From contig DYEY01000048.1 in assembly GCA_020725465.1 (NCBI GenBank), positions 1 through 33,403 of the forward strand: a DNA stretch of 33,403 nucleotides, written 5' to 3'. Below, piece after piece: positions 1 through 16,989 of the stretch. The first letter of the stretch is position 1. Every line of letters starts with the position of its first letter. Origin of the DNA: Dethiobacter sp. GTDB lineage: Bacteria; Bacillota; Dethiobacteria; Dethiobacterales; Dethiobacteraceae. The notes under the pieces were generated by a model that saw nothing but the letters and a program-made list of their open reading frames with translations, did no database searches and was not told where the DNA came from. The position numbers were made by a program, and so were the translations under genes.

Positions 1-484
1 CCCCTTTGCGGGTGTTGATGGACTCCTGGATGGCCACTTCATCCGGAGTTCCCCTGCGCAAAGTGCCGCCCGCCCCGGCATACAGGCCTTCGCTGTTTTC
101 CCTTATCACCACAAAGTCGATATCTTCTGGCCCCTTATCACGGAGGGGAGATTCCACCCCGGGGTACAGTTTTACCGGCCGCAGGTTTATATACTGGTCA
201 AGCTCGAAGCGCAGGCGCAGCAACAGGCCTTTTTCCAGGATACCGGGCTTTACGTCGGGGTGGCCGATGGCGCCAAGATAGATGGCGTCAAAACCGCGCA
301 GCTCAGACAGGACGCTTTCCGGCAGGATCTCGCCGGTGCGCAGGTAGCGTTCTCCCCCTAAGTCATATTGGGTCAAATCCAGCCTGAACCCTTCCGCACT
401 GCTTACAGCCTGCAGAACTTTAACTCCTTCGCGAATTACCTCCGGCCCTGTCCCGTCTCCCGGGATTACGGCGATTTTTATCAT
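1..484 (-). CDS. 3-isopropylmalate dehydrogenase-like protein, N-terminal part
   Basis: The first 161 codons of a beta-decarboxylating dehydrogenase (LeuB / isocitrate / tartrate dehydrogenase family) that runs off the left edge. The family oxidises a 2-hydroxy acid with NAD and removes CO2; LeuB acts in leucine synthesis. Seen here: the N-terminal [10 protein letters not shown] nucleotide-site motif, the substrate-arginine region [20 protein letters not shown], and [11 protein letters not shown]. The ATG at 482-484 is preceded on its own strand by GGGAGGT at good spacing. It diverges from the repair operon at 614; a weak -10 (TACAAT) with a poor -35 17 nt away can be read upstream on this strand. 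The substrate (isopropylmalate, isocitrate or tartrate) cannot be fixed from this part alone; no leu neighbours are visible. Confidence 0.85.
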
Positions 485-613: not shown

Positions 614-1654
614 ATGGCTGTGGAAATCGGGCCGCTTCTGGCCCGCCTGAAGAGAAGATATACGCGCCTCCCCCGTGCCGCCGGCCTCTGGTTTGACCCG
701 CGGGAACGGGCAGATGGCGTCTTGGTCAGGACGGCGGAAAACCGTTTCCTGGCGACGGCTTTTACCGGAGAGGACGACCTGAAGCGCCTCTTTGGGCAGG
801 TGGTTAGGCCGCACGTGCTGGTACTGGAGAAAGACACGGTACCGGATGGGGTGGCGGCTTTTCTTGGCCGCGAACACGAATCGGTTATTTACGCCGGACT
901 GTCATATGTGATGGCTGCACTGGGCCTTTCCGGTACGGCGGCGACAGCAGGGTGGTTTGCCTGCTGCGGCCTTGACCTGCGGCCGAAACCGCCGTCCGGG
1001 GGGGCTGTTTCTGCTTCTTTGCTGGCGTTGGCGGGGTTGTTCTACCTGGCGGATGAATACGAGTACCGGGACGGCGGCGTGGTGCCTCTCTTATTCGAAG
1101 GCAACCCCCTCTACACCTTTCTGCGCCTGGTGCCGTACGGGGAAGTTACCACTTTCGCCGAGATTGCCAAGGCACTGGGACTGCAGTGGACCGAGCAGCC
1201 GGTGATGGCTGAGGTGGCTCGCCTTCCCGGTGAGGCGGAGGTGTTCGGGCACCGGGTCGTGCACCGCGACGGCAGGTTGTCGGAACTATTCCCCGGAGGG
1301 GCCGCGCTGCAACGGGAGCTGCTGAAGTGGGAGATGGTGCCCTTTGTCGCCGGCGAGAGGGTAGACATGAAACGGGCGTTGTGGACAAGGCAGAAATACC
1401 GGGCGCTGACCGGCTACCTGCGCCGGGCCCTGCGCCAGGAAAGATTCATCGAGATGAGCTTCCCTGAACTGGAAAGGGTGGCGGGTTTTCCTCTGTCCAG
1501 AGCGGCCAGAAGACTGGGGTCGTGGTGGAGCAATGACAGGCCGCACGCCTGGATCTGGCAGGCGGCGGGCGGCAGGGTGGTAAATGTAAACATGAAGGCG
1601 GCTACGGTGGTGTTTGGCAGGGAGCAGAAAGGGGATGGGGAGGAGCGGGTTTGA
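614..1654 (+). CDS. alkyltransferase-like (ATL/MGMT-fold) protein with extra N- and C-terminal domains
   Basis: 346 residues in three parts. Residues 1-160 are not recognised. Residues ~164-245 match the DNA-binding half of O6-alkylguanine transferases: [21 protein letters not shown], then [12 protein letters not shown] where the enzyme has PCHRVV. The acceptor cysteine is replaced by Gly212, so methyl transfer is not expected; known ATL proteins likewise lack the Cys and bind alkylated DNA to flag it for repair. Residues ~281-335 ([12 protein letters not shown], then [12 protein letters not shown] and [12 protein letters not shown]) resemble a small uncharacterised domain I believe is DUF7662. 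The start is ATG 614, with GGAGG at 602-606; a GTG at 608 lies inside the ribosome site. The stop overlaps the TTG start of addB (TTGA), so the two are co-translated. The link to repair is inferred from the fold and the operon. Confidence 0.72.
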
Positions 1655-4600
1655 CGGTAAGGTTTGTCCTGGGCAGGGCGGGCAGCGGGAAAACAAGGTG
1701 GTGCCTGTCAGCCATAGCCAGGGAAGCAGCGGATGAACCGCTCGGACCCCCCCTGGTGATGCTGGTGCCGGAACAGGCCACTTTCCAGACGGAAAAAGCA
1801 TTGCTGGCACTGTGCGGCGGACTGACGCACCGTGCCCAGGTCCTTTCTTTCAGCCGGCTGGAGGGCAGGCTGCTCAATGCCGGCGGTGCCCCGGTTTTGC
1901 CTGAAATTAGCGAAACCGGCAGGCAGATGGTAATCAGAAGGCTGCTGCAGGAGAGAAAAGATGGGCTGGAAATATTTGAACAGTCTGCCCGTAAGGCCCG
2001 TTTCGCCGTAAAGTTAAGCGAGCAGTTCAGAGAGTTTAAAAACTACGGGATAACGCCGGAAGCACTGGCAGAAGCCGCCGCCGGGGAAGGGACGCCCCCT
2101 GTCCTGCAGGCCAAGCTGCGGGTGCTGTCCGCGCTTTACGGAGATTACCTGGAATACACGGGCGGTCGTTTCTCTGATCCGGAGGACGCGCTCAGCCGGG
2201 TGGCCTCGGTTTTGCGGACGGGGGCGCTCCCTGTGGGCACCCGGATCTGGATTGACGGCTTCTCCGGTTTTACACCGCAGGAATACAGTGTGCTGCGGGC
2301 TCTTTTTGGCGCGGCTGCCCGGGTGGAACTGGCGCTGTGCCTGGACCACACCCACACCGCCGGCGAAATTAAAGAGAATGACCTCTTTTTTCCCACCCAG
2401 GAGGCATACCGCCGCCTCAGAATCCTGGCTGGGCAGGCCGGCGTGCGGGTCCTGCCGCCGCTTGAGCTGCCGCTTTCAGGTCAGCCCACGCGCTACAGGC
2501 CGGGCAGCGGATTGGCCCACCTGGAGCGAAATTTCGGTGCCGGCGCAGCGGCGCAGTACCCGGCCACAGCCGGGGACGTCAGGCTTGTTTACGCCGCCAA
2601 CCGGCGGGCGGAGGTGGAGGCGGTGGCCCGGGACATACTGCACAAAACGCGGGAGGCTGGCTGGCGCTTCCGGGAGATGGCGGTTCTTCTGCGAGACATC
2701 AGCCCATACCGGGAACTGATTCCCTCGGTATTTGCCAGTTACGGCATTCCCTTTTTTCTGGACGGCCTGCGCCCGGTTTCCCACCATCCCCTCCCGGAGT
2801 TTTTGCGTTCCAGCCTGGCCGCGGTGCAGCGGAATTTCCGTTTTGAAGACGTCGCCTGCCTGCTGAAGACTGATCTTTTACCCCTGGACAGGTACGGGGC
2901 AGACTGCCTGGAAAACTACCTGCTGGAGCATGGCATCAGGGGGCTGCGCTGGCTGGATGACGAGCCCTTCCGGTTCCGGCGTTCCCTCTCCCTGGCGGAA
3001 GAAGACGAGATAATAACCGCCGGTGACAGGGAAAGGGATATCCTGGTAAACAGGGCCAGGGAGACCTTCAGGAGGGTTATTTTTCCTTTTTATAAGGCCG
3101 TAACCGCCGGCCGCCGCCTGGCAGCTTCGGATTACTGCCGGGCCCTGTGGTCGCTTCTGGAGTCGGTGGAAGCGTTAGCTGTGGTGCGGTCCTGGGCCGA
3201 TGGCGATGAAAGGGCGGGGGAACCGGAAAAGGCGGACTGGCACCGGCAGGTTTGGCAGGAAACGGTGGCATTGCTTGAGGAGATTCATACAGTAATGGGT
3301 GACTGCGCGCTGACCTTGGAGGAGTTTTCGGAAATCCTGCTGTCCGGGCTGGAAGGAATGCGGGCGGGGCTGGTGCCGGCAGGCCTGGACCAGGTGCTGG
3401 TGGGCGGTGTGGAAAGGTCACGCCAGCCGGCCCTGCGCGCGGTTTACGTGCTCGGCCTGTGCGAAGGGGAATTTCCGGCCCGTCTGGGTGAAAGCGGCCT
3501 CTTCGCTGACAGTGAAAGGGAGCTGCTGGCCGATTTTGGCCAAGAATTGGCGCCGTCAAGGCGCCGGCGGTTATTTTACGAGCAGTACCTGGCTTACATA
3601 GCCCTGACCAGGGCTTCGGAACTTGTTTTTGCCGGCTGCCCCCAAAACGCCGAAGACGGCAAGCCCAAGCGTCCCTCCTTGCTGTTTAACCACCTGTGCC
3701 GGATGTTCCCTGCCAATGGGACCGAGTTCTACGGTTTGACTCCGGACGGGGAAAACCGCCTGCATTTCCTGGCCGGAGGGGAACCGCTGGCAGCCGCCCT
3801 GCTAAAGGAGGCGGCCGGCATACTGGCCGGGGAAACCCCGGATGAGCTTTGGCCCGTCGTTTATGGTGAAGCGTTGCGGGACAGCCGCTTGCGGCGGCGC
3901 CTGGAGCTGATTTGGCCTGCCCTTACCTGCCATAACAGGGCGAAAAGGCTTTCCCGCCCACAGGCTGAGTCCCTCTACGGCTTTCCGGTCAAAAGCAGCG
4001 TTTCGCGCCTGGAACTTTTTGCGCGCTGCCCTTTCGCCCATTTCGCGCGTTTCGGGCTTTGCCTGCGGGAAAGAAGCGAGTTCGGGGTGGAAGCGCCTGA
4101 CATGGGCAACTTTTACCACGAAGCACTGCGCCTGTTTGTCTGTGGGCTGCAGGAGGACGGTATTGACTGGGGTTGCCTGCAACCGGAAGAAGCGGCGGCC
4201 AGGATGGAAAAGATCGTAGACGAGTTGGTGCCCCGGCTGCGCGGGGAAATTCTCCTCTCCAGCGCCCGTCACCGTTACCTGGCGCAGCGACTGAAGGAAG
4301 ACCTGGTCCGGGCGGCCCGGCGCCTGACCAGGCAGGCAGGATTCAGCACTTTCCGTCCCTGCGCCGTGGAAATGCCTTTTAACCTCAAAATCAGGGAAGA
4401 AGTGAACGGCGGCCTGGAGCTGTACGGCCGTATTGACCGGGTAGACCGGGCGAAGGGAGGAGACCGGGGGTTTATATCGGTAATCGATTACAAGGCCGGT
4501 CCCGCCGACTATAAGATTGCCGATACCTGGCACGGGTTGTCGCTACAATTGCCGGTTTACCTGGCCGCCGCGCTGCAGGAGGGCGGCGCGGGCGGTGGCG

Positions 4601-5073
4601 ACTGCGCAGCCGGTATGTTCTATTTCCCCGTATACACCCCCCCGGAGCGGGCGGACAACCCGGAGCAGGGCAGGGAGCCGGACGAGAACCCGGGAGACCT
4701 GCAGCTGTACGGCCTGGTCTTTGCCGACCGCGAGGTCTTTGAGCTCCTGGGCGGAAGGGAGGGGATCCTACCCGCTGCGCTGAAAAAGGACGGTTCCTTC
4801 ACGGCCAGGTCACGCATAGCGGACCGGGCGCAGCTAGCCGCCCTGACCGGTCTGGCCTTTGCGAAAATGGAAGCGGCGGCCCGTGCCATACTGGACGGTG
4901 ACACCGCTGTTTATCCCTACCGGCGCCCCAGCGGTGACAACGCCTGCCTCTTTTGCCGGTACCGCCCGCTTTGCCGCTTTGAGAACGGGGACGGCAACCG
5001 CTGGCGCCCGGTCAGGGATTTTTCGCACGGGGAAGTGTTGGAGATGCTGGCAAAGCGGGGTGGTGAGATATGA
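1651..5073 (+). CDS. addB: ATP-dependent helicase/nuclease AddB (RexB-type), subunit B
   Basis: 1140 residues, the usual AddB length. With AddA it resects double-strand breaks for RecA-dependent repair. The Walker A motif is GRAGSGKT at residues 8-15. The C-terminal RecB-type nuclease has VIDYKAG with Asp946 and Lys948. Four cysteines, C793 and C1099-x2-C1102-x5-C1108, form the iron-sulphur staple around the nuclease that marks AddB. Start is TTG at 1651 overlapping the previous stop, preceded by GGGGAGGAG. The stop overlaps addA by 4 nt (ATGA). This subunit normally recognises the crossover hotspot sequence and carries one of the two nuclease sites. No damaged motif was seen. Confidence 0.96.
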   Translation: MTVRFVLGRAGSGKTRWCLSAIAREAADEPLGPPLVMLVPEQATFQTEKALLALCGGLTHRAQVLSFSRLEGRLLNAGGAPVLPEISETGRQMVIRRLLQERKDGLEIFEQSARKARFAVKLSEQFREFKNYGITPEALAEAAAGEGTPPVLQAKLRVLSALYGDYLEYTGGRFSDPEDALSRVASVLRTGALPVGTRIWIDGFSGFTPQEYSVLRALFGAAARVELALCLDHTHTAGEIKENDLFFPTQEAYRRLRILAGQAGVRVLPPLELPLSGQPTRYRPGSGLAHLERNFGAGAAAQYPATAGDVRLVYAANRRAEVEAVARDILHKTREAGWRFREMAVLLRDISPYRELIPSVFASYGIPFFLDGLRPVSHHPLPEFLRSSLAAVQRNFRFEDVACLLKTDLLPLDRYGADCLENYLLEHGIRGLRWLDDEPFRFRRSLSLAEEDEIITAGDRERDILVNRARETFRRVIFPFYKAVTAGRRLAASDYCRALWSLLESVEALAVVRSWADGDERAGEPEKADWHRQVWQETVALLEEIHTVMGDCALTLEEFSEILLSGLEGMRAGLVPAGLDQVLVGGVERSRQPALRAVYVLGLCEGEFPARLGESGLFADSERELLADFGQELAPSRRRRLFYEQYLAYIALTRASELVFAGCPQNAEDGKPKRPSLLFNHLCRMFPANGTEFYGLTPDGENRLHFLAGGEPLAAALLKEAAGILAGETPDELWPVVYGEALRDSRLRRRLELIWPALTCHNRAKRLSRPQAESLYGFPVKSSVSRLELFARCPFAHFARFGLCLRERSEFGVEAPDMGNFYHEALRLFVCGLQEDGIDWGCLQPEEAAARMEKIVDELVPRLRGEILLSSARHRYLAQRLKEDLVRAARRLTRQAGFSTFRPCAVEMPFNLKIREEVNGGLELYGRIDRVDRAKGGDRGFISVIDYKAGPADYKIADTWHGLSLQLPVYLAAALQEGGAGGGDCAAGMFYFPVYTPPERADNPEQGREPDENPGDLQLYGLVFADREVFELLGGREGILPAALKKDGSFTARSRIADRAQLAALTGLAFAKMEAAARAILDGDTAVYPYRRPSGDNACLFCRYRPLCRFENGDGNRWRPVRDFSHGEVLEMLAKRGGEI

Positions 5074-8000
5074 GTGGCCACTGGACGGCGGAACAAAAAG
5101 AGGCTATATATACCAGGGACGGCAACCTGCTGGTGGCCGCCGCCGCCGGCGCCGGCAAAACAGCGGTGTTGGTAGAAAGGGTTGTGCGCCTGCTTCTGGA
5201 CCCTGCTAACCCGGTTGATATTGACAGGCTGCTGGTGGTTACCTTCACCGAGGCGGCGGCTTCGGAAATGAGGGAGCGCATCGGCAGGGCGCTGGAAGAA
5301 GCGATGGAGCGGGAGCCGGGGGATAACCTGGCCCGCCAGCTGGCATTGCTGCACGGCGCAGCCATATCAACCATTCACTCCTTTTGCCTGGATGTGGTCC
5401 GGCGCTACTTTTACCGCCTTGATATGGAGCCTTCCTTCCGGGTGGCCGAACCCCCGGAGAGCGATCTGCTGCAGCAGGAAGTGGTGGCTGAACTGCTGGA
5501 AGACTGCCACAACGACAGCACCCGTACCGTTTTTCAGCAGCTGGTGTGGGCATATGGCGGCAGGCGCGGCGATGAAGGGCTGGCCAGGCTAATCCTCTCT
5601 GTGTACCTTTTTACCCGGAGCACCATTAATCCCGGAAAGTGGCTTAAAGAGGCGGTTGAACCGTTCGCGTCTGCCGGGGACGGAGGGGAGCCGGCCCTGG
5701 CACGGTGGCTGGAACCTGTCCGGAGGCACCTGGGTCATGAGCTGCAAAGGGCAAAAGACCTGCTGCAGTCGGCCCTCCGCCTTTGCCGGCTTCCCGGTGT
5801 GCCGCCGGCGTACCGGCCGGTGCTGGAAAACGACCTTTCCAGCCTGGAGGAGCTGCTTGGCCTGCTTGGCCGTCCTTTAGACGAAATCCGCCAGGCCTGG
5901 CTGGACTTTGGCTTTGACAGGCTGCCAGCGGTCCGGGGCGTGGGTGAGGCGGTAAAAGAGCAGGTAAAAGAAAGGCGTGACGCGGCAAAGGCGGCGGTAA
6001 AGCGTGCCGGGGAGATTTTCCTGACCAGGGACAGCGGCAGCTACCGGGAGGAAATACGGCAGCTGGCACCGCTGGTGCAGGAGCTGGCGCTGCTGGTGGA
6101 AGAATTCTCCCGGCGCTTCGCCGGGGAAAAAAGACAACGCGGCCTCCTGGACTTCAGCGACCTGGAACATTTGTGCCTGCAGGTGCTGCTGGACGGGCAG
6201 CAGGACCAGGCCGGCCTTAGGCCTTCGGCGGAAGCGCTGGCCATCAGGGACTCCTATGACTATGTCCTGGTGGACGAGTACCAGGATATCAACCCGGTGC
6301 AGGACGCCATTTTAAACCTGGTTTCCCGGCAGGGTGCGGACAATCCCAACCTGTTCATGGTGGGAGATGTGAAGCAGAGCATTTATCGCTTCCGGCTGGC
6401 AGACCCGGGGATTTTCCTGGCGCGTTACCGTACCTTTCCCGAAGAGCCGGGCGGCAGGGAACGCAAAATCTGCCTGTCCTCCAACTTCCGCTGTGCCGCC
6501 AATATCGTAGAGGCGGTTAACTACCTTTTCCGGCGGCTGATGACCGGGGGCGTTGCGGGCATGGTCTATGACAGCAAAGCGGAGCTGGTTTACGGTGCCG
6601 GTTACGATGCCAAAGACGACCCGGTGGAAGTACACCTGGTGGACGGCGGCAGGGAAGCCCTTTGGACGGGGGAAGGCGCTGATGCCGAAGCGGATGAGGA
6701 GGCAGAACTCACACTCCTGGAAAGGGAAGCGATGGTGATAGCACGGCGCATCATGGAAATGACAGCGGGCGGCTGTGAGGTTTGCCTCCCGGGTGGAAAG
6801 CGGCCTGTCAGGTACAGCGATATCGCCGTGTTGTTGCGGGCCACCACCGGGCGGGCCAACCATCTGGTGGAAGTGCTGAGAAAAGCGGGAATACCGGCCG
6901 ACGCCGACCTGGCTACCGGTTATTTTCAGGCGGTGGAGGTGCAGACCATGCTGTCCCTGCTCAGCGTGGTGGATAACCCCTGCCAGGATATTCCGCTGGC
7001 CGCCGTCCTGCGCTCCCCCCTGGTGGGGCTTGATGAGGGGGAGCTGGCCGCGGTCCGGCTGGCCGGGGGGAAGGGCGGTTTTTATGAATGCGTGTCCTTC
7101 GCTGCCGCCGGGGACATACCCGGTGTCTCGGCCAGGCTGAGAGAATTTCTGGACAGGCTTGACCGCTGGCGTTCCCTGGCCAGGCGCGACACGCTGTCCG
7201 CCTTTATAGACACAGTTTACCGGGAAAGCGGTTACCTGGCGTATGTTGGCGGCCTGCCTGACGGGGCGCACCGCCGGGCTAACCTGGAGGCCCTTGTTGA
7301 GAGGGCCGGGGAGTTTGACCGGTTTTCAAAGCAGGGGCTGTTCCGTTTCCTCAGGTATATGGGGTTCCTGCAAAGATTCGGGCGTGACCTGGGAGCAGCC
7401 CGCTCCCAGGGCAGCGGGAAGGATGCGGTAACCGTTCTCAGCATACACAAAGCAAAGGGATTGGAGTTCCCGGTGGTCTTTGTCTGTGACCTGGGCAGGA
7501 AATTTAATTTTCAGGAAATGAGGGGCGAGGTGCTGGTCCACCGGGAGCTGGGTTTCGGTCCCCTGGTGGTGGACAGGGAAAGGCGCCGGCGCTATCCATC
7601 GCTGCCGCACCTGGCATGCCGGCTGAGCGGAGAAGCGGAAGCCCGGGCTGAAGAGCTGCGGATACTCTACGTGGCTCTCACCAGGGCCAGGCAGAAGCTG
7701 ATACTTTTGGCATCGGCCCCTGACCTGGAAAGGAGGCTGTCAGACTGGCAGGAAGCGGCGGCGGGCGGGTGGCCGCCGGATTACCGCCTGGCGCGGGCGC
7801 AGAGTTTCCTGGATTGGCTGGGGCCGGTTTTGTCGGCCCACCCTGACTGGCCCGGCAACAGGAGAGCCGGCGACCCGGAATGCTCCCGCTGGTCTGTTTC
7901 CATCTGGCGCGGCGGAGAAAGCGTGGCTCCGGTTGGGCGGGAGGCGGCCGAACCAGTGACCGGAGCGGCGCGCCTGCTGCGGCTGCTGCCGCTGCAGCAG

Positions 8001-8801
8001 GAAACGGACCCGGAGTTGGCCGGGGAAGTGCGTGCCAGGATAACTTACCGCTACCCGTATCTCAGCCTGGCCACAGTTCCGGCCAAAGTGGCCGCCGCTG
8101 CAGCAGGCAACCTGATATATGGTCGACGGGAAGACCAGGAAGCCGCCCTGTTCGAGGCGCCCTCCTGGCCCCGGCCCGCTTTCCTGCAGGGTGCCGGGCA
8201 GGCGGGAGTTGCCTGGCGCGGGCACGCCCACCACCTGGTAATGCAGCACCTTGATCTGGGGCAGTCCCTGGATGCCGCCGGTGTGAAAAAGCAGGTGGAG
8301 CTGCTGGTACAGAAAAAATTGGTCGGAGCGGAACTGGCGGAGCTGGTTGACTTTGGAGCGGTGGCCGCGTTCTTCGCCACAGAGGTAGGGCGGCTTGCCG
8401 TTGGCAACCGGAAAAATGTGCTGCGGGAGTGGCATTTCACCATGGCGCTGCCTGCGGCTGAGCTGTTTGACCCTGAGGGGGCACCAGAAGAAGAAGTGGT
8501 GGTGCAGGGCGTGGCCGACCTGGTGGTGAGGGAGCGGGACTGTTTTTACGTGGTCGACTATAAAACAGGGAAACCGCCGCTTCCCGGCGAAAAGGGAGAT
8601 ACACTGCACCGGCTGCAGCTTTCTCTCTATGCCCGGGCGGTACAGGGGATCCTGCAGCCGCCGACTGTAAAGGCATACCTCTACTACCTGGACAGCTGCC
8701 TGCTGGTGCCGGTGGAGACGGGAAAAATATTAAATTTTGAAAAAAATCAAAAAATCGGCCTGTTTCCGGTAGGAATAACGGCGGACCGGGGAGAAAATTA
8801 A
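5070..8801 (+). CDS. addA: ATP-dependent helicase/nuclease AddA, subunit A
   Basis: 1243 residues, UvrD-type superfamily 1 helicase with a C-terminal RecB-family nuclease. Motifs in order: AAAAGAGKT (Walker A, Lys30), VDEYQDINPVQ (Walker B, Asp402-Glu403), GDVKQSIYRFR (motif III region), VTVLSIHKAKGLEFPVV (motif V), EELRILYVALTRARQKL (motif VI) and VVDYKTGKP with Asp1163 and Lys1165 (nuclease). It unwinds and degrades DNA ends as a heterodimer with AddB and is the motor subunit. It starts at ATG 5070 within ATGA of the addB stop, so translation is coupled. AddAB instead of RecBCD fits a Gram-positive host. Confidence 0.97.
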   Translation: MSGHWTAEQKEAIYTRDGNLLVAAAAGAGKTAVLVERVVRLLLDPANPVDIDRLLVVTFTEAAASEMRERIGRALEEAMEREPGDNLARQLALLHGAAISTIHSFCLDVVRRYFYRLDMEPSFRVAEPPESDLLQQEVVAELLEDCHNDSTRTVFQQLVWAYGGRRGDEGLARLILSVYLFTRSTINPGKWLKEAVEPFASAGDGGEPALARWLEPVRRHLGHELQRAKDLLQSALRLCRLPGVPPAYRPVLENDLSSLEELLGLLGRPLDEIRQAWLDFGFDRLPAVRGVGEAVKEQVKERRDAAKAAVKRAGEIFLTRDSGSYREEIRQLAPLVQELALLVEEFSRRFAGEKRQRGLLDFSDLEHLCLQVLLDGQQDQAGLRPSAEALAIRDSYDYVLVDEYQDINPVQDAILNLVSRQGADNPNLFMVGDVKQSIYRFRLADPGIFLARYRTFPEEPGGRERKICLSSNFRCAANIVEAVNYLFRRLMTGGVAGMVYDSKAELVYGAGYDAKDDPVEVHLVDGGREALWTGEGADAEADEEAELTLLEREAMVIARRIMEMTAGGCEVCLPGGKRPVRYSDIAVLLRATTGRANHLVEVLRKAGIPADADLATGYFQAVEVQTMLSLLSVVDNPCQDIPLAAVLRSPLVGLDEGELAAVRLAGGKGGFYECVSFAAAGDIPGVSARLREFLDRLDRWRSLARRDTLSAFIDTVYRESGYLAYVGGLPDGAHRRANLEALVERAGEFDRFSKQGLFRFLRYMGFLQRFGRDLGAARSQGSGKDAVTVLSIHKAKGLEFPVVFVCDLGRKFNFQEMRGEVLVHRELGFGPLVVDRERRRRYPSLPHLACRLSGEAEARAEELRILYVALTRARQKLILLASAPDLERRLSDWQEAAAGGWPPDYRLARAQSFLDWLGPVLSAHPDWPGNRRAGDPECSRWSVSIWRGGESVAPVGREAAEPVTGAARLLRLLPLQQETDPELAGEVRARITYRYPYLSLATVPAKVAAAAAGNLIYGRREDQEAALFEAPSWPRPAFLQGAGQAGVAWRGHAHHLVMQHLDLGQSLDAAGVKKQVELLVQKKLVGAELAELVDFGAVAAFFATEVGRLAVGNRKNVLREWHFTMALPAAELFDPEGAPEEEVVVQGVADLVVRERDCFYVVDYKTGKPPLPGEKGDTLHRLQLSLYARAVQGILQPPTVKAYLYYLDSCLLVPVETGKILNFEKNQKIGLFPVGITADRGEN

Positions 8802-8824
8802 CATAAAAAAAAAGGAGACGGGTG

Positions 8825-9556
8825 ATGGAAATCAATAATGATTTTATCGTACTTTCCGCCATCCTGGAAGCGGACCACGCGGTAAGCCCAAGACACCTGG
8901 CGCCGCTTTTAAACCTGTCACCGGCGGAAATTGGGCAGAGCATCCTGTCGCTGCAGAAGTACCTGCGTGTCCATGCTTATGACAAAAACGCACCGGAGGG
9001 CGACTGCCGTTATTATGTAACCAAGGACAAGAGGCCTGAGGTCAGGGACCTGATCAGGGAGACATTGCGGCAGCTGCCGGAAAACCTTTATTTTTCTTAC
9101 GGCTCCAATATGGATTATTACCAGCTGTACCGCCGCTGCCCAAACGCCCACTTCCTGACCCGGGCCAGCCTGAAAGACCACACCCTTTCTTTCCCCCGCA
9201 AAGCATCTGCCTGGGGTAATTGCGGCGTAGCGGGATTTAAAGCGGAGCCCGGGTCAGAGTTGCCGGGAGTCATCTATTTCCTGCCCTTTGGTGACTTCGC
9301 CCGTTTGGACGGCTTTGAAGGTCACCCCAGGTTTTATGTCAGGAAAACAGTTACGGTACAGACGGCTGACTTTGGTGACATTGCTGTTACTACTTATGCG
9401 GCGGAAGAGCAGGGAGAGTTCTTTGCGCCCTCCCGAAAGTACATGGAGCAGATGACGACCGGGGCACGGCTGTTTAACCTTGATCCTGTTTACGTGCAGC
9501 GGTTGATGCGCATCACCACTGCAGTTGATACCTCCGGGGAGAGAAAAGAGGGTTGA
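8825..9556 (+). CDS. gamma-glutamylcyclotransferase-like protein with N-terminal helical (winged-helix-like) domain
   Basis: 243 residues. Residues ~89-215 match the GGCT/AIG2 fold: YFSYGSNM (89-96), then LDGFEGHPRFYVRKTVTV, where Glu165 is in the place of the catalytic glutamate. Members open gamma-glutamyl amines or peptides to 5-oxoproline, or act on related amides; the substrate here is unknown. Residues 1-80 are predicted helical with the pattern of a winged helix (HLAPLLNLSPAEIGQSILSLQKYL, then a basic strand CRYYVTKDKR). That is not part of ordinary GGCT proteins, so DNA binding is possible but inferred. ATG 8825 follows AAAGGAG at 8811-8817; a GTG at 8822 is too close. It lies 23 nt behind addA and probably ends the repair operon. 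Confidence 0.75.
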   Translation: MEINNDFIVLSAILEADHAVSPRHLAPLLNLSPAEIGQSILSLQKYLRVHAYDKNAPEGDCRYYVTKDKRPEVRDLIRETLRQLPENLYFSYGSNMDYYQLYRRCPNAHFLTRASLKDHTLSFPRKASAWGNCGVAGFKAEPGSELPGVIYFLPFGDFARLDGFEGHPRFYVRKTVTVQTADFGDIAVTTYAAEEQGEFFAPSRKYMEQMTTGARLFNLDPVYVQRLMRITTAVDTSGERKEG

Positions 9557-9581: not shown

Positions 9582-9596
9582 AGTGTTGAGAATAAA

Positions 9597-9772
9597 TAAC
9601 AGGCTGCGGTGCCGGCATGGCCGGAGAATAGGGAACCGGGTGCGATTCCCGGGCGGACCCGCCACTGTAACCGGGGAGGAATCACCAGAACCACCGGAGC
9701 CAGGTTCCGGGAAGGGGTGGCTACATTGAACCGGAAGCCAGGAGACCTGCCGCAACCGGCCGGAACTTAAGG
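9597..9772 (+). ncRNA. cobalamin (adenosylcobalamin) riboswitch
   Basis: This untranslated leader carries the conserved aptamer landmarks in order: GGTGCCG near 9608, GAATAGGGAAC near 9626, GGTGCGATTCCCGGGCGGAC, the core CCGCCACTGTAA near 9660, GGGAAGGGGTGG near 9710, and GAAGCCAGGAGACCTGCC near 9733-9751. It is followed directly by a strong terminator hairpin and cobT. In this family bound cobalamin favours the terminator, so the late B12 gene is switched off when B12 is plentiful. The ends are approximate. Confidence 0.95.
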
Positions 9773-9839: not shown

Positions 9840-10895
9840 ATGGAGAAACTGAGAGAGACTGTAGCCAGGATTGTTCCTCCCGATGTTCGGGCCATGGCTT
9901 GGGCGCAAAGGAGGCTGGACGACCTGACCAAGCCGCCGGGCAGCCTCGGTGTGCTGGAAAAGATGGCAAGGCAGATAGCCGGTATTACGGGGCAGCCAAG
10001 GCCGGCTTTGCCGGAAAAGACCTGTATCCTGATGGCAGGTGACCACGGTGTGACAGAGGAGGGGGTTTCCTCTTATCCCAGCGAGGTAACGGCACAGATG
10101 GTGCTTAACTTTCTGGCCGGTGGCGCCGCCATGAGTGTCCTGGCCCGTCATGCCGGCGCCAGGCTGGTGGTGGTGGATGTGGGAGTAAAAAGCGATCTTC
10201 CACAACACCCGTTGCTGCTTGGGCGCAAAGTTGCCCACGGTACCGCCAACATGGCGCTGGGCCCGGCCATGACCCGGGAACAGGCGGTGGCAGCCCTGGA
10301 GGTTGGCATCGGGGTGGCGGAGGAATGCATCAGGGACGGCGCCGGTATCCTTGGTACCGGCGAGATGGGCATAGGTAACACTACGCCCAGCACCGCCATA
10401 GTCGCCCTTTACCGCGGCTGCAATGTGGCCGAAGTCTGCGGTCGGGGTACCGGGCTCAACTCTGAACAGCTTAAAAGAAAAATATCGGTAATTGAAAAAG
10501 CACTGGCTGTAAACCGCCCTGACCCTGGTGACCCCCTGGACGTTTTGGCCAAGGTGGGAGGGTTGGAAATAGCGGCTTTGGCCGGAGTTATGCTGGCCGC
10601 CGCCGCCGGGCGGGTGCCGGTGGTGGTGGACGGCTTTATTTCCGGCGCGGCGGCGCTAATCGCCGCCGCTATTGCGCCTGTCTGCCGGGAATACATGATT
10701 GCCTCGCACCTTTCCGAAGAACCGGGGCATAAAATGATGTTGGAGCTGCTTGGCCTGGAGCCGTGCCTGCACATGAACATGCGCCTCGGCGAAGGCACCG
10801 GCGCTGCCCTGGCCATGCTGCTTATTGACGGCGCTATCAAAATTATAAATGAAATGGCCACCTTCAGCGAAGCCGGGGTAGCCAGGAGCGAATAA
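9840..10895 (+). CDS. cobT: nicotinate-nucleotide--dimethylbenzimidazole phosphoribosyltransferase
   Basis: 351 residues, the family length. It makes alpha-ribazole phosphate from nicotinate mononucleotide and a lower-ligand base, in assembly of the cobalamin nucleotide loop in the cytoplasm. Family motifs: KPPGSLGVLEKMA, MAGDHGVTEEGVS, GEMGIGNTTPSTA, GRGTGLN, VVDGFISGAAAL, SHLSEEPGHK and LGEGTGAA with Glu318 in the place of the catalytic glutamate. ATG 9840 follows AAGGAGG. It is controlled by the cobalamin riboswitch just upstream. No other cob gene is adjacent, so it stands as a single-gene B12 unit here. The actual lower-ligand base cannot be told from sequence. Confidence 0.97.
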   Translation: MEKLRETVARIVPPDVRAMAWAQRRLDDLTKPPGSLGVLEKMARQIAGITGQPRPALPEKTCILMAGDHGVTEEGVSSYPSEVTAQMVLNFLAGGAAMSVLARHAGARLVVVDVGVKSDLPQHPLLLGRKVAHGTANMALGPAMTREQAVAALEVGIGVAEECIRDGAGILGTGEMGIGNTTPSTAIVALYRGCNVAEVCGRGTGLNSEQLKRKISVIEKALAVNRPDPGDPLDVLAKVGGLEIAALAGVMLAAAAGRVPVVVDGFISGAAALIAAAIAPVCREYMIASHLSEEPGHKMMLELLGLEPCLHMNMRLGEGTGAALAMLLIDGAIKIINEMATFSEAGVARSE

Positions 10896-14717: not shown

Positions 14718-15506
14718 ATGAAAATAGTGTTTCATCCCAGGTTCCTGAAGAGCTATACCAGCGATCCGGCGGCGGAGGCGGGGAGGTTGGAGCCCTCACT
14801 GGCGCTGCTTAAGGATACTTTCCCGTTGGTTGAACCGGAAAGCGCCCGGGAAGAGGATATCCTGCTGGTACACACCCAGGGACACCTGGAAGGAGTGCGC
14901 CGTGATACGGTGGTTTTCCGTATGGCTCTGCTTGCCGCCGGCGCCACCATGGAGGCGGCCCGGCTGTCACTCTCCGGGGAGGCCGCCTTTGCCCTCTGCC
15001 GTCCACCCGGGCACCATGCCGGCAGGGATAACTGCTGGGGCTTCTGTTATTTTAACAACGTGGCGGTGGCGGTGGCCAGCCTGTTAAAAAACGGCGACAT
15101 CAGGAGCGCGGCAATTGTGGATTTTGACTTGCACTATGGCGACGGCACCGCCAATATTTTTGCAGGGAACAGAGAGGTTGCCTACTGCCATGTCAGGGGC
15201 AGCGGTGGTTTTGCCTTTGTGGAGAACCTGAAAAGATTCCTGGAAACCGCTGCCTTTGACATTATCGCCGTATCGGCCGGCTTTGACCGCCATGTCAGGG
15301 ACTGGGGAGGCCAGCTGTCAGACCGCGATTACGGCGCCATAGGCCGGGTCATCGGTGAGGCGGCGAAGGGCAGATGTGGGGGCAGGGTATTTGCCGCCCT
15401 GGAGGGGGGCTATAACGCCAGGTCAATGGCCACCGGCCTGGCAGCTTTTCTGGATGGGCTGGAAGCCGGGGGAGACCCTTGGCAGGAAGGCGGAAAAGAG
15501 GTATAA
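14718..15506 (+). CDS. histone deacetylase family protein (AcuC/HdaH-like amidohydrolase)
   Basis: 262 residues, shorter than the ~300-370 usual in bacterial members, with the core intact. Family members remove acetyl or similar acyl groups from lysine or polyamines using a zinc ion. Seen: RPPGHHAG (His99-His100 catalytic pair), DFDLHYGDGT (zinc ligands Asp137 and His139), SAGFDRH (third ligand Asp190) and LEGGYN with the catalytic-type tyrosine. ATG 14718 follows AGAGAGGTG. The 126 nt before it hold the phosphorylase terminator and no clear promoter. The next gene's promoter lies inside its last codons. Its position before acyl-CoA genes could mean removal of acyl marks from enzymes, but that is inference. 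Confidence 0.88.
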   Translation: MKIVFHPRFLKSYTSDPAAEAGRLEPSLALLKDTFPLVEPESAREEDILLVHTQGHLEGVRRDTVVFRMALLAAGATMEAARLSLSGEAAFALCRPPGHHAGRDNCWGFCYFNNVAVAVASLLKNGDIRSAAIVDFDLHYGDGTANIFAGNREVAYCHVRGSGGFAFVENLKRFLETAAFDIIAVSAGFDRHVRDWGGQLSDRDYGAIGRVIGEAAKGRCGGRVFAALEGGYNARSMATGLAAFLDGLEAGGDPWQEGGKEV

Positions 15507-15507
15507 T
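15479..15507 (+). promoter_or_regulatory. sigma-70 type promoter for the sigma-54 activator gene
   Basis: TTGGCA at 15479-15484, a 17-nt spacer, and a consensus TATAAT at 15502-15507. It lies within the last codons of the deacetylase gene; the TAA stop is part of the -10. The predicted start near 15514 leaves a ~27-nt leader to ATG 15541. Confidence 0.78.
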
Positions 15508-15540
15508 GAAGTTCATAAAAACGGTAACGAGGTAACGCGG

Positions 15541-16989
15541 ATGCTGAACACCGCCATATCAATTCAAGGCATTTTGTTCAATGAAGAAGAGAATAACGTC
15601 ACGCGCCTGAAAAAGGAACTGGAAGTTATTATCGAAACCATTTATGACGGTGTTATCTTAAGCGACGCCGAAGGGCGCATTTTCTGGGCCAACAGCGGCG
15701 TGGAAAGAGTCTCGGGTGGCATCATGATTGCCGATATCCTGGGTAAAACGGCGAAAGAGCTGGAAGAGGAAGGTATTATCGTTTCCCAGAGCAAGAAGAT
15801 ACTGGGCAAGAATCCCATGACCCTGAAGCAGAAGCTGCGGACCGGGGTGGAGCTTTTAATAACCAGCACCCGCGCCTACGACGATAACGGCAAGTTTATG
15901 TTTTTTGTGGCCAACCTCAGGGATATTACGGAACTAAACCGCCTGAAGAAAGAGATGGAAGAGACCAAGGACCTGAGCGACCGGTATTACCGGGAGCTGA
16001 CCGAGCTGCGCGACAGGGTGCTGCAACAGGGCCGTATTATTTTTAAAAGCGAGAAAATGCAGCAGGTGTGCGAGCGGGTCATGAAAATTGCCAGGACCGA
16101 CACCAACGTCTTGCTGACCGGGCCTTCCGGCGCCGGCAAAGAAGTTATCGCCAAGTTTATCCACCGGACAAGCAACCGGTGCAAAGAACCGTTTGTGCAG
16201 ATCAACTGCGGCGCCATCCCGGAAACGTTGCTGGAATCCGAGCTTTTCGGTTATGACAGGGGCGCCTTTACCGGGGCCAGCAAGCAGGGTAAAATGGGCC
16301 TGATGGAGATGGCCAACAACGGCACCATACTGCTGGACGAGATAGGGGATTTGCCGCTCAACCTGCAGGTAAAACTGCTGCGCGCCATCCAGGAGCAGGT
16401 GGTATACCGGGTGGGCTCCACCACCCCCATACAGCTGGACGTCAGGATTATAGCGGCCACCAACCGCAACCTGGAAGATATGGTGAAGAAAGGCCTGTTC
16501 CGCGAAGACCTCTATTACCGGCTGAACGTAATTCCCATCCATATACCGCCGCTGCGGGAGAGAAAAGAGGACATCCTGCCGCTGGCTTTCAGCTTTCTCG
16601 ACCGCTACAACAAAAAACACGGCACAGACAAATCTTTCTCGGTGAAGGTATGTAACCTCCTGGAGGCCTATGACTGGCCGGGCAATGTGAGGGAACTGGA
16701 AAACCTGGTGGAGAGAATGGTGGTTATTTCCGACAACAAGATCCTTACTCCGGACTGCCTCCCGCCCCATTTTCAGGCGGAAATACGGGAGAGCACCCTG
16801 ACCGGCGCACTCCCGGCTTCCCGGGAAAACTTATTGTTGCCGCTCCGGGAAGTAAGGAACCGGGCGGAACGGGAAGCTATCACCAGAGCGCTGGAAATTG
16901 GCGGTTCGACACGCAAGGCGGCAGAACTGCTGGAAGTTGACCATTCCACCGTGGTAAGGAAGGCCAGGCAACTTAATATTGTCATCTGA
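15541..16989 (+). CDS. PAS-domain sigma-54-dependent transcriptional activator
   Basis: 482 residues. A PAS sensor occupies ~25-130 (TIYDGVILSDAEGRIFWANS; DDNGKFMFFVANLRDITE), followed by a coiled linker ~135-175. The AAA+ domain has GPSGAGKE (Walker A, Lys200), GAFTGA (241-246, sigma-54 contact), LLDEIGD (Walker B, Asp266-Glu267) and LREDLYYRLNV-type sensor sequence. The C-terminal helix-turn-helix is ~448-480 (STRKAAELLEVDHSTVVRKARQL), of TyrR/Fis type. ATG 15541 follows GAGGT; the frame stays open further upstream but without a ribosome site and over the deacetylase gene. No receiver domain is present, so the PAS domain probably senses a small molecule or redox state. The palindrome and -24/-12 promoter right behind suggest it controls the acyl-CoA genes. 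Confidence 0.93.
   Translation: MLNTAISIQGILFNEEENNVTRLKKELEVIIETIYDGVILSDAEGRIFWANSGVERVSGGIMIADILGKTAKELEEEGIIVSQSKKILGKNPMTLKQKLRTGVELLITSTRAYDDNGKFMFFVANLRDITELNRLKKEMEETKDLSDRYYRELTELRDRVLQQGRIIFKSEKMQQVCERVMKIARTDTNVLLTGPSGAGKEVIAKFIHRTSNRCKEPFVQINCGAIPETLLESELFGYDRGAFTGASKQGKMGLMEMANNGTILLDEIGDLPLNLQVKLLRAIQEQVVYRVGSTTPIQLDVRIIAATNRNLEDMVKKGLFREDLYYRLNVIPIHIPPLRERKEDILPLAFSFLDRYNKKHGTDKSFSVKVCNLLEAYDWPGNVRELENLVERMVVISDNKILTPDCLPPHFQAEIRESTLTGALPASRENLLLPLREVRNRAEREAITRALEIGGSTRKAAELLEVDHSTVVRKARQLNIVI

Follow-up and report, generated by a model that had tools for sequence, protein, structure and literature searches.

The first gene of the addBA row in Dethiobacter sp. encodes a three-domain protein, ATLF, which we tentatively read as a putative non-enzymatic, multi-module DNA-binding accessory that is made together with the AddAB helicase-nuclease. 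The window, a stretch of 33,403 nucleotides of contig DYEY01000048.1, carries this gene on the forward strand at positions 614–1651, with the stop codon at 1652–1654. An ATG at 614 serves as the start codon, the ribosome-binding site GGAGGTG lies upstream at 602–608 on the same strand, and the product has 346 residues; the assignment is based on the list of open reading frames, Pfam and homologues. Full-length homologues were found in three other genomes, all from the same family as the window (G011 with 53%, G002 with 45% and G009 with 47% identity); the carriers are related anaerobes. A chance open reading frame is ruled out, since 44–53% identity is kept across four genera.

Two of the three domains are recognized by Pfam. 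PF01035 matches residues 167–241 (E 6.7e-12, 45.5 bits against a cut-off of 27) and DUF7662 (PF24698) matches residues 265–332 (E 7e-8, 32.6 bits against a cut-off of 26), while the N-terminal ~160 residues have no family match in Pfam, NCBIfam or PHROGs. A first, sequence-only reading of this DNA had already described a three-part protein with Gly in place of the acceptor Cys. Both points stand: the architecture is the same in all four carriers, and Gly212 (codon 1247–1249, forward strand, motif VFGHRV), which is aligned with the acceptor Cys, is invariant among them. The absence of this Cys excludes an active alkyltransferase. The architecture is new, and no paper on an ATL-RuvC fusion was found in the literature. 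A role as a defence system was rejected, as PADLOC gave no match, and so was a mobile, plasmid or phage origin, with no phage match and a single plasmid match that covered DUF7662 only.

In all four carriers ATLF heads a row of genes and faces a divergent gene for an isocitrate/isopropylmalate dehydrogenase. Only the start of the latter lies in the window (1–484, reverse strand, partial; assigned from the sequence and from same-place orthologues, PF00180). Downstream of ATLF the forward strand carries addB (1651–5073; TIGR02773, E 1e-246, just under the cut-off of that model) and addA (5070–8801; TIGR02785, over its cut-off). The row reads ATLF-addB-addA in the window and in G011, and ATLF-sbcD-like-sbcC-like-addB-addA in G002 and G009, where the immediate neighbor of ATLF is thus the sbcD-like gene. 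The SbcD-like proteins score below the cut-offs of Mre11/SbcD models, and the SbcC-like proteins match Rad50/SMC models. The linkage with addBA, originally noticed in the window, therefore recurs in 4/4 carriers, and a check of the other genomes revealed no carrier lacking it. Translational coupling to addB had been proposed as well. The TTG start of addB at 1651 indeed overlaps the ATLF stop by 4 nt, but this overlap is specific to the window genome; in G011, addB starts ~48 nt downstream of ATLF with a ribosome site of its own. What is kept across deep divergence and gain or loss of the sbcDC-like genes is the place of ATLF at the head of the operon, with short gaps.

Directly after addA, a gene at 8822–9553 (forward strand) encodes a gamma-glutamylcyclotransferase (GGACT/AIG2-like) C-terminal domain with an unrecognized N-terminal part. 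A Cobalamin riboswitch (9590–9768, forward strand) lies directly upstream of a gene for a CobT-like phosphoribosyltransferase (9840–10892). At 14718–16986 (forward strand) the reading frame of a histone-deacetylase-like gene overlaps that of a sigma-54 activator, and this pair precedes a fatty-acid/2-hydroxyacyl-CoA dehydratase cluster reaching 33270.

The basic C-terminal region of ATLF (1355–1651, forward strand) contains the DUF7662 domain (residues 265–332, 1406–1609). The earlier assignment of this part as DUF7662-like is borne out, with PF24698 scoring above the Pfam gathering threshold in all four homologues (32.6–47.8 bits against 26). The full-length model shows a helix, a strand, two or three helices and a hairpin, an order that fits a winged helix, and a sequence search of the PDB gave nothing above chance. 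Our hypothesis, based on the predicted structure, is that DUF7662 may adopt a winged-helix DNA-binding fold. Outside ATLF, DUF7662 proteins stand alone or are fused to weak GIY-YIG-like, GNAT or DUF1653 domains. Such fusions were seen at L036 1483–1983, L051 1498–2304, L056 991–1776 and L052 949–1914, and the DUF7662-DUF1653 fusion adjoins a UvrD-like helicase. No paper on DUF7662 was found.

Conservation and charge are distributed unevenly over the protein. Pairwise identity among the four ATLFs is 58–74% in the ATL domain, 51–59% in the C-terminal region and 26–41% in the N-terminal domain, the least conserved part, compared with 47–51% for AddB relative to AddB of the window. The altered ATL domain is constrained and was repurposed, not decaying, since it is the most conserved part and exceeds even AddB. 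In three ATLFs the ATL domain has a pI of 5.5–5.7 and the C-terminal domain one of 10.2–11.6; the corresponding values for G009, whose copy has the more ATL-like residues, are 8.5 and 9.6. We infer that DNA contact may have shifted toward the DUF7662 side, a trend drawn from four sequences only.

These properties also bear on the main rival to the accessory reading, according to which ATLF is an autoregulator of the addBA (or sbcDC-addBA) operon; its operator would lie between the dehydrogenase gene and ATLF and be bound by the DUF7662 and ATL-fold domains. A first gene facing a divergent one is a suitable place for a regulator, and a basic C-terminal domain with a predicted helix-strand-helix-helix-hairpin order, as in a winged helix, would be suitable as well. 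However, no inverted repeat is common to the four upstream regions, addBA is kept in relatives without ATLF, and helix-turn-helix (HTH) domains of the AGT type bind the minor groove non-specifically (PMC10779285). Autoregulation is regarded as unlikely.

The middle domain (residues 163–247, 1100–1354, forward strand; PF01035) has the AGT fold, with a VIA Z of 10.5 to human AGT and of 9.8 to DNA-bound Atl1 (3gx4), and Atl1 from S. pombe is the best sequence match of ATLF in the PDB. The AGT/ATL fold is thus present in the model. Between the conserved Gly and the Cys position the alignment has no gaps, so that residues can be compared one by one (Atl1 numbering; order window genome G000, G011, G002, G009). 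Tyr25 corresponds to F/F/F/Y, the Arg39 finger to Q/D/K/R and Pro55 to F/F/F/P. Trp56 is replaced by Gly in all four, and at Arg69 the residues L/V/F/I are hydrophobic throughout. In addition, Ala38 corresponds to Glu and Gly42 to Met in 4/4, and Ala44 to E/E/E/H. In the window the rewritten recognition helix spans residues 192–205 (1187–1228, forward strand), with the invariant Glu194 and Met198 and with Gln195 at the Arg-finger position. On this helix, which faces the DNA, ordinary relatives have Ala, Gly or Ser in place of the invariant Glu and Gly in place of the invariant Met. The latter keep Tyr, Val, Gly and Pro in 11/11 and Arg in 10/11 sequences, a set that includes repeat fetches of some loci and hence fewer independent sequences. 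Only the ATLF of G009 retains Tyr, Arg and Pro together.

AGT/ATL proteins rely on the HTH Tyr and the Arg finger for base flipping, and their recognition helix binds in the minor groove (PMC10779285). Consequently, judged from the residues present, flipping of a lesion is unlikely in three of the four ATLFs and possible in that of G009. This speaks against a true ATL that would recognize an alkylated base such as O6-alkylguanine and pass it on to AddAB or nucleotide excision; ATLs bind O6-alkylguanine and recruit UvrA/UvrC. ATLF shares with ATLs (S. pombe Atl1, E. coli ATL; PF01035) the C-terminal AGT fold, the absence of the Cys and the His-Arg of the motif, Atl1 is its closest PDB match by sequence, and the G009 copy has Tyr, the Arg finger and Pro. 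It differs from them by a Gly where ATLs have Trp, by an Arg finger and a Tyr that are not conserved, by a DNA-facing helix that bears Glu and Met, by two extra domains and by neighbors from recombination rather than excision. Three of the four members have other residues in place of the Arg finger, Tyr and Pro, and in every one a hydrophobic residue stands at the equivalent of Arg69. Furthermore, all four carriers, the window genome included, encode an ordinary Ogt/alkyltransferase with PCHR elsewhere in the genome, which covers small O6 lesions, although an ATL would still be compatible with it. A lesion-flagging ATL, as originally proposed, is therefore not upheld for ATLF, the G009 copy excepted, because the Arg finger, Tyr and the Pro-Trp of the pocket are missing or variable and the minor-groove helix is rewritten with Glu and Met; we consider a true ATL to be quite improbable.

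Other members of the AGT fold were encountered in the same family. Besides ATLF and Ogt, G011 holds a stand-alone ATL of 103 aa (L122 1444–1755, G011:C37) in which Ser replaces the Cys (PSHRV) and both Tyr and the Arg finger are kept. A protein of 158 aa from G012 (L125 1231–1707, G012:C40), which contains half of a DNA_binding_1 domain, lacks the PCHR motif (PYWRTLKKDG) and is another Cys-less branch of the fold.

Homologues were searched for in 120 relatives, then in the class (98 genomes) and in a draw of 398 genomes from the phylum. Neither the class nor the phylum set yielded ATLF outside the four carriers, and the remaining matches were ordinary AGT/ATL or DUF7662 proteins. A second phylum draw centered on G300, a sample largely the same as the first, added no members. 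A search of contigs with the single ATLF sequence gave no match, and one with the alignment retrieved only the G011 and G002 loci. Among the 16 other genomes of the family the dehydrogenase gene directly adjoins addB in 12, G012 has the order dehydrogenase-sbcD-sbcC-addB-addA without ATLF, and G010 and G016 have different genes upstream of addB. In G003, of the same family, the genome search gave no AddB match and an sbcD-sbcC-like pair is kept (L111, G003:C25:46000–64000).

Fifteen relatives have AddB without ATLF, and the distribution of ATLF on the AddB tree needs three changes. We infer one ancestral presence followed by repeated loss, because repeated gain at the same spot is unlikely. 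A single ancestor is thus the probable source of the shared position next to addBA; the linkage is genuinely conserved, yet it does not represent four independent events. On this basis ATLF could also be a general DNA-maintenance protein, functionally separate from AddAB, that occupies the same place by descent. Four carriers from one family with one locus, and a tree best read as ancestral presence with losses, would agree with such a protein. It is less easily reconciled with an operon-head place and short gaps that were kept over deep divergence and sbcDC-like gain and loss, and its probability appears to be low.

The N-terminal domain (residues ~19–155, 668–1078, forward strand) was described as unrecognized in the sequence-only reading. 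This holds for sequence families but not for the fold. Two models, with four sequences behind them, agree on it: one of the full-length protein (pLDDT 72) and one of the G002 domain by itself (pLDDT 83, pTM 0.84). Both begin with three strands, after which helices and strands alternate. The best match of the G002 domain model is RuvC from T. thermophilus (VIA Z 12.2, rmsd 2.8 over 130 residues), with a Foldseek E of 1.7e-4 for this model built from four sequences. MOC1, the connector domain of MutS and the YqgF domain of Spt6/Tex follow in the ranking, the MutS and Spt6 domains with Z of about 9–11. Sequence relatives in the PDB were only myosin light chains and calmodulin, taken as chance. 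In the four homologues the only invariant acids of the N-terminal part are residues 87, 148, 150 and 162 of the window protein. Conserved acids are absent at the catalytic places of RuvC, namely in strand 1 (22–25), in strand 4 (68–72) and at the start of the last helix (131–145). From the models we conclude that the domain has a predicted RuvC-like RNase H fold lacking the RuvC active site. The likeness to the resolvase lies in the predicted fold of residues ~19–155, whereas the catalytic acids are missing and no sequence similarity was detected; in lacking these acids the domain resembles the inactive RNase H-like versions in MutS and Spt6. A junction nuclease of the RuvC type, active and directed to its target by the remaining domains, is rejected as highly improbable: the conserved acids are lacking and the domain is the least conserved part of the protein, even though the RuvC-like fold covers all of it.

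The N-terminal domain of MGMT is also RNase H-like and was considered as a possible source; AGT chains were not among the top rows of the fold search with the isolated domain. Archaeal AGT-EndoV and ATL-EndoV fusions exist (PMC10779285). Like ATLF, they join an AGT/ATL domain to a nuclease domain, but the RNase H-like domain of ATLF is N-terminal, RuvC-like and without an active site, and DUF7662 is added. EndoV is itself RNase H-like in fold.

For the preferred reading as an accessory of AddAB we propose the following arrangement. The bulk of the DNA affinity would come from the basic DUF7662 domain. Alkylated bases would no longer be flipped by the ATL-fold domain, which may instead dock either on a partner or on DNA of unusual structure, and the RuvC-fold domain could act as a scaffold or as a grip on branched DNA. 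Jointly, the domains might guide AddAB resection, or hold it back, at certain DNA structures. In G002 and G009 ATLF would also be made with the Mre11/Rad50-like SbcD-SbcC pair. The accessory reading is supported by the operon-head place by addBA in 4/4 carriers, with or without intervening sbcDC-like genes, by the invariant Gly212, by the loss of the Arg finger, Tyr and Pro in 3/4 and the Glu and Met of the rewritten helix, by the charge difference between the ATL and C-terminal domains, by the RuvC-like fold and its missing acids and by the strong selection seen in the ATL-fold and C-terminal domains. Counted against it are a linkage that possibly reflects one inheritance, the fifteen AddB relatives without ATLF, and structure models and a charge shift drawn from four sequences.

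A more specific form, whose probability is rather low, is a dedicated cofactor of resection nucleases in which an alkyltransferase fold and a dead RuvC-like domain read a lesion or structure and direct or limit processing by AddAB, and by the Mre11/Rad50-like pair where present. DUF7662 gains a testable context beside recombination genes. AddAB is usually portrayed as a heterodimer that works by itself; joint action with ATLF, if it occurs, would give this machine an uncommon accessory subunit and would mean that an alkyltransferase fold was taken from the repair of lesions into that of breaks.
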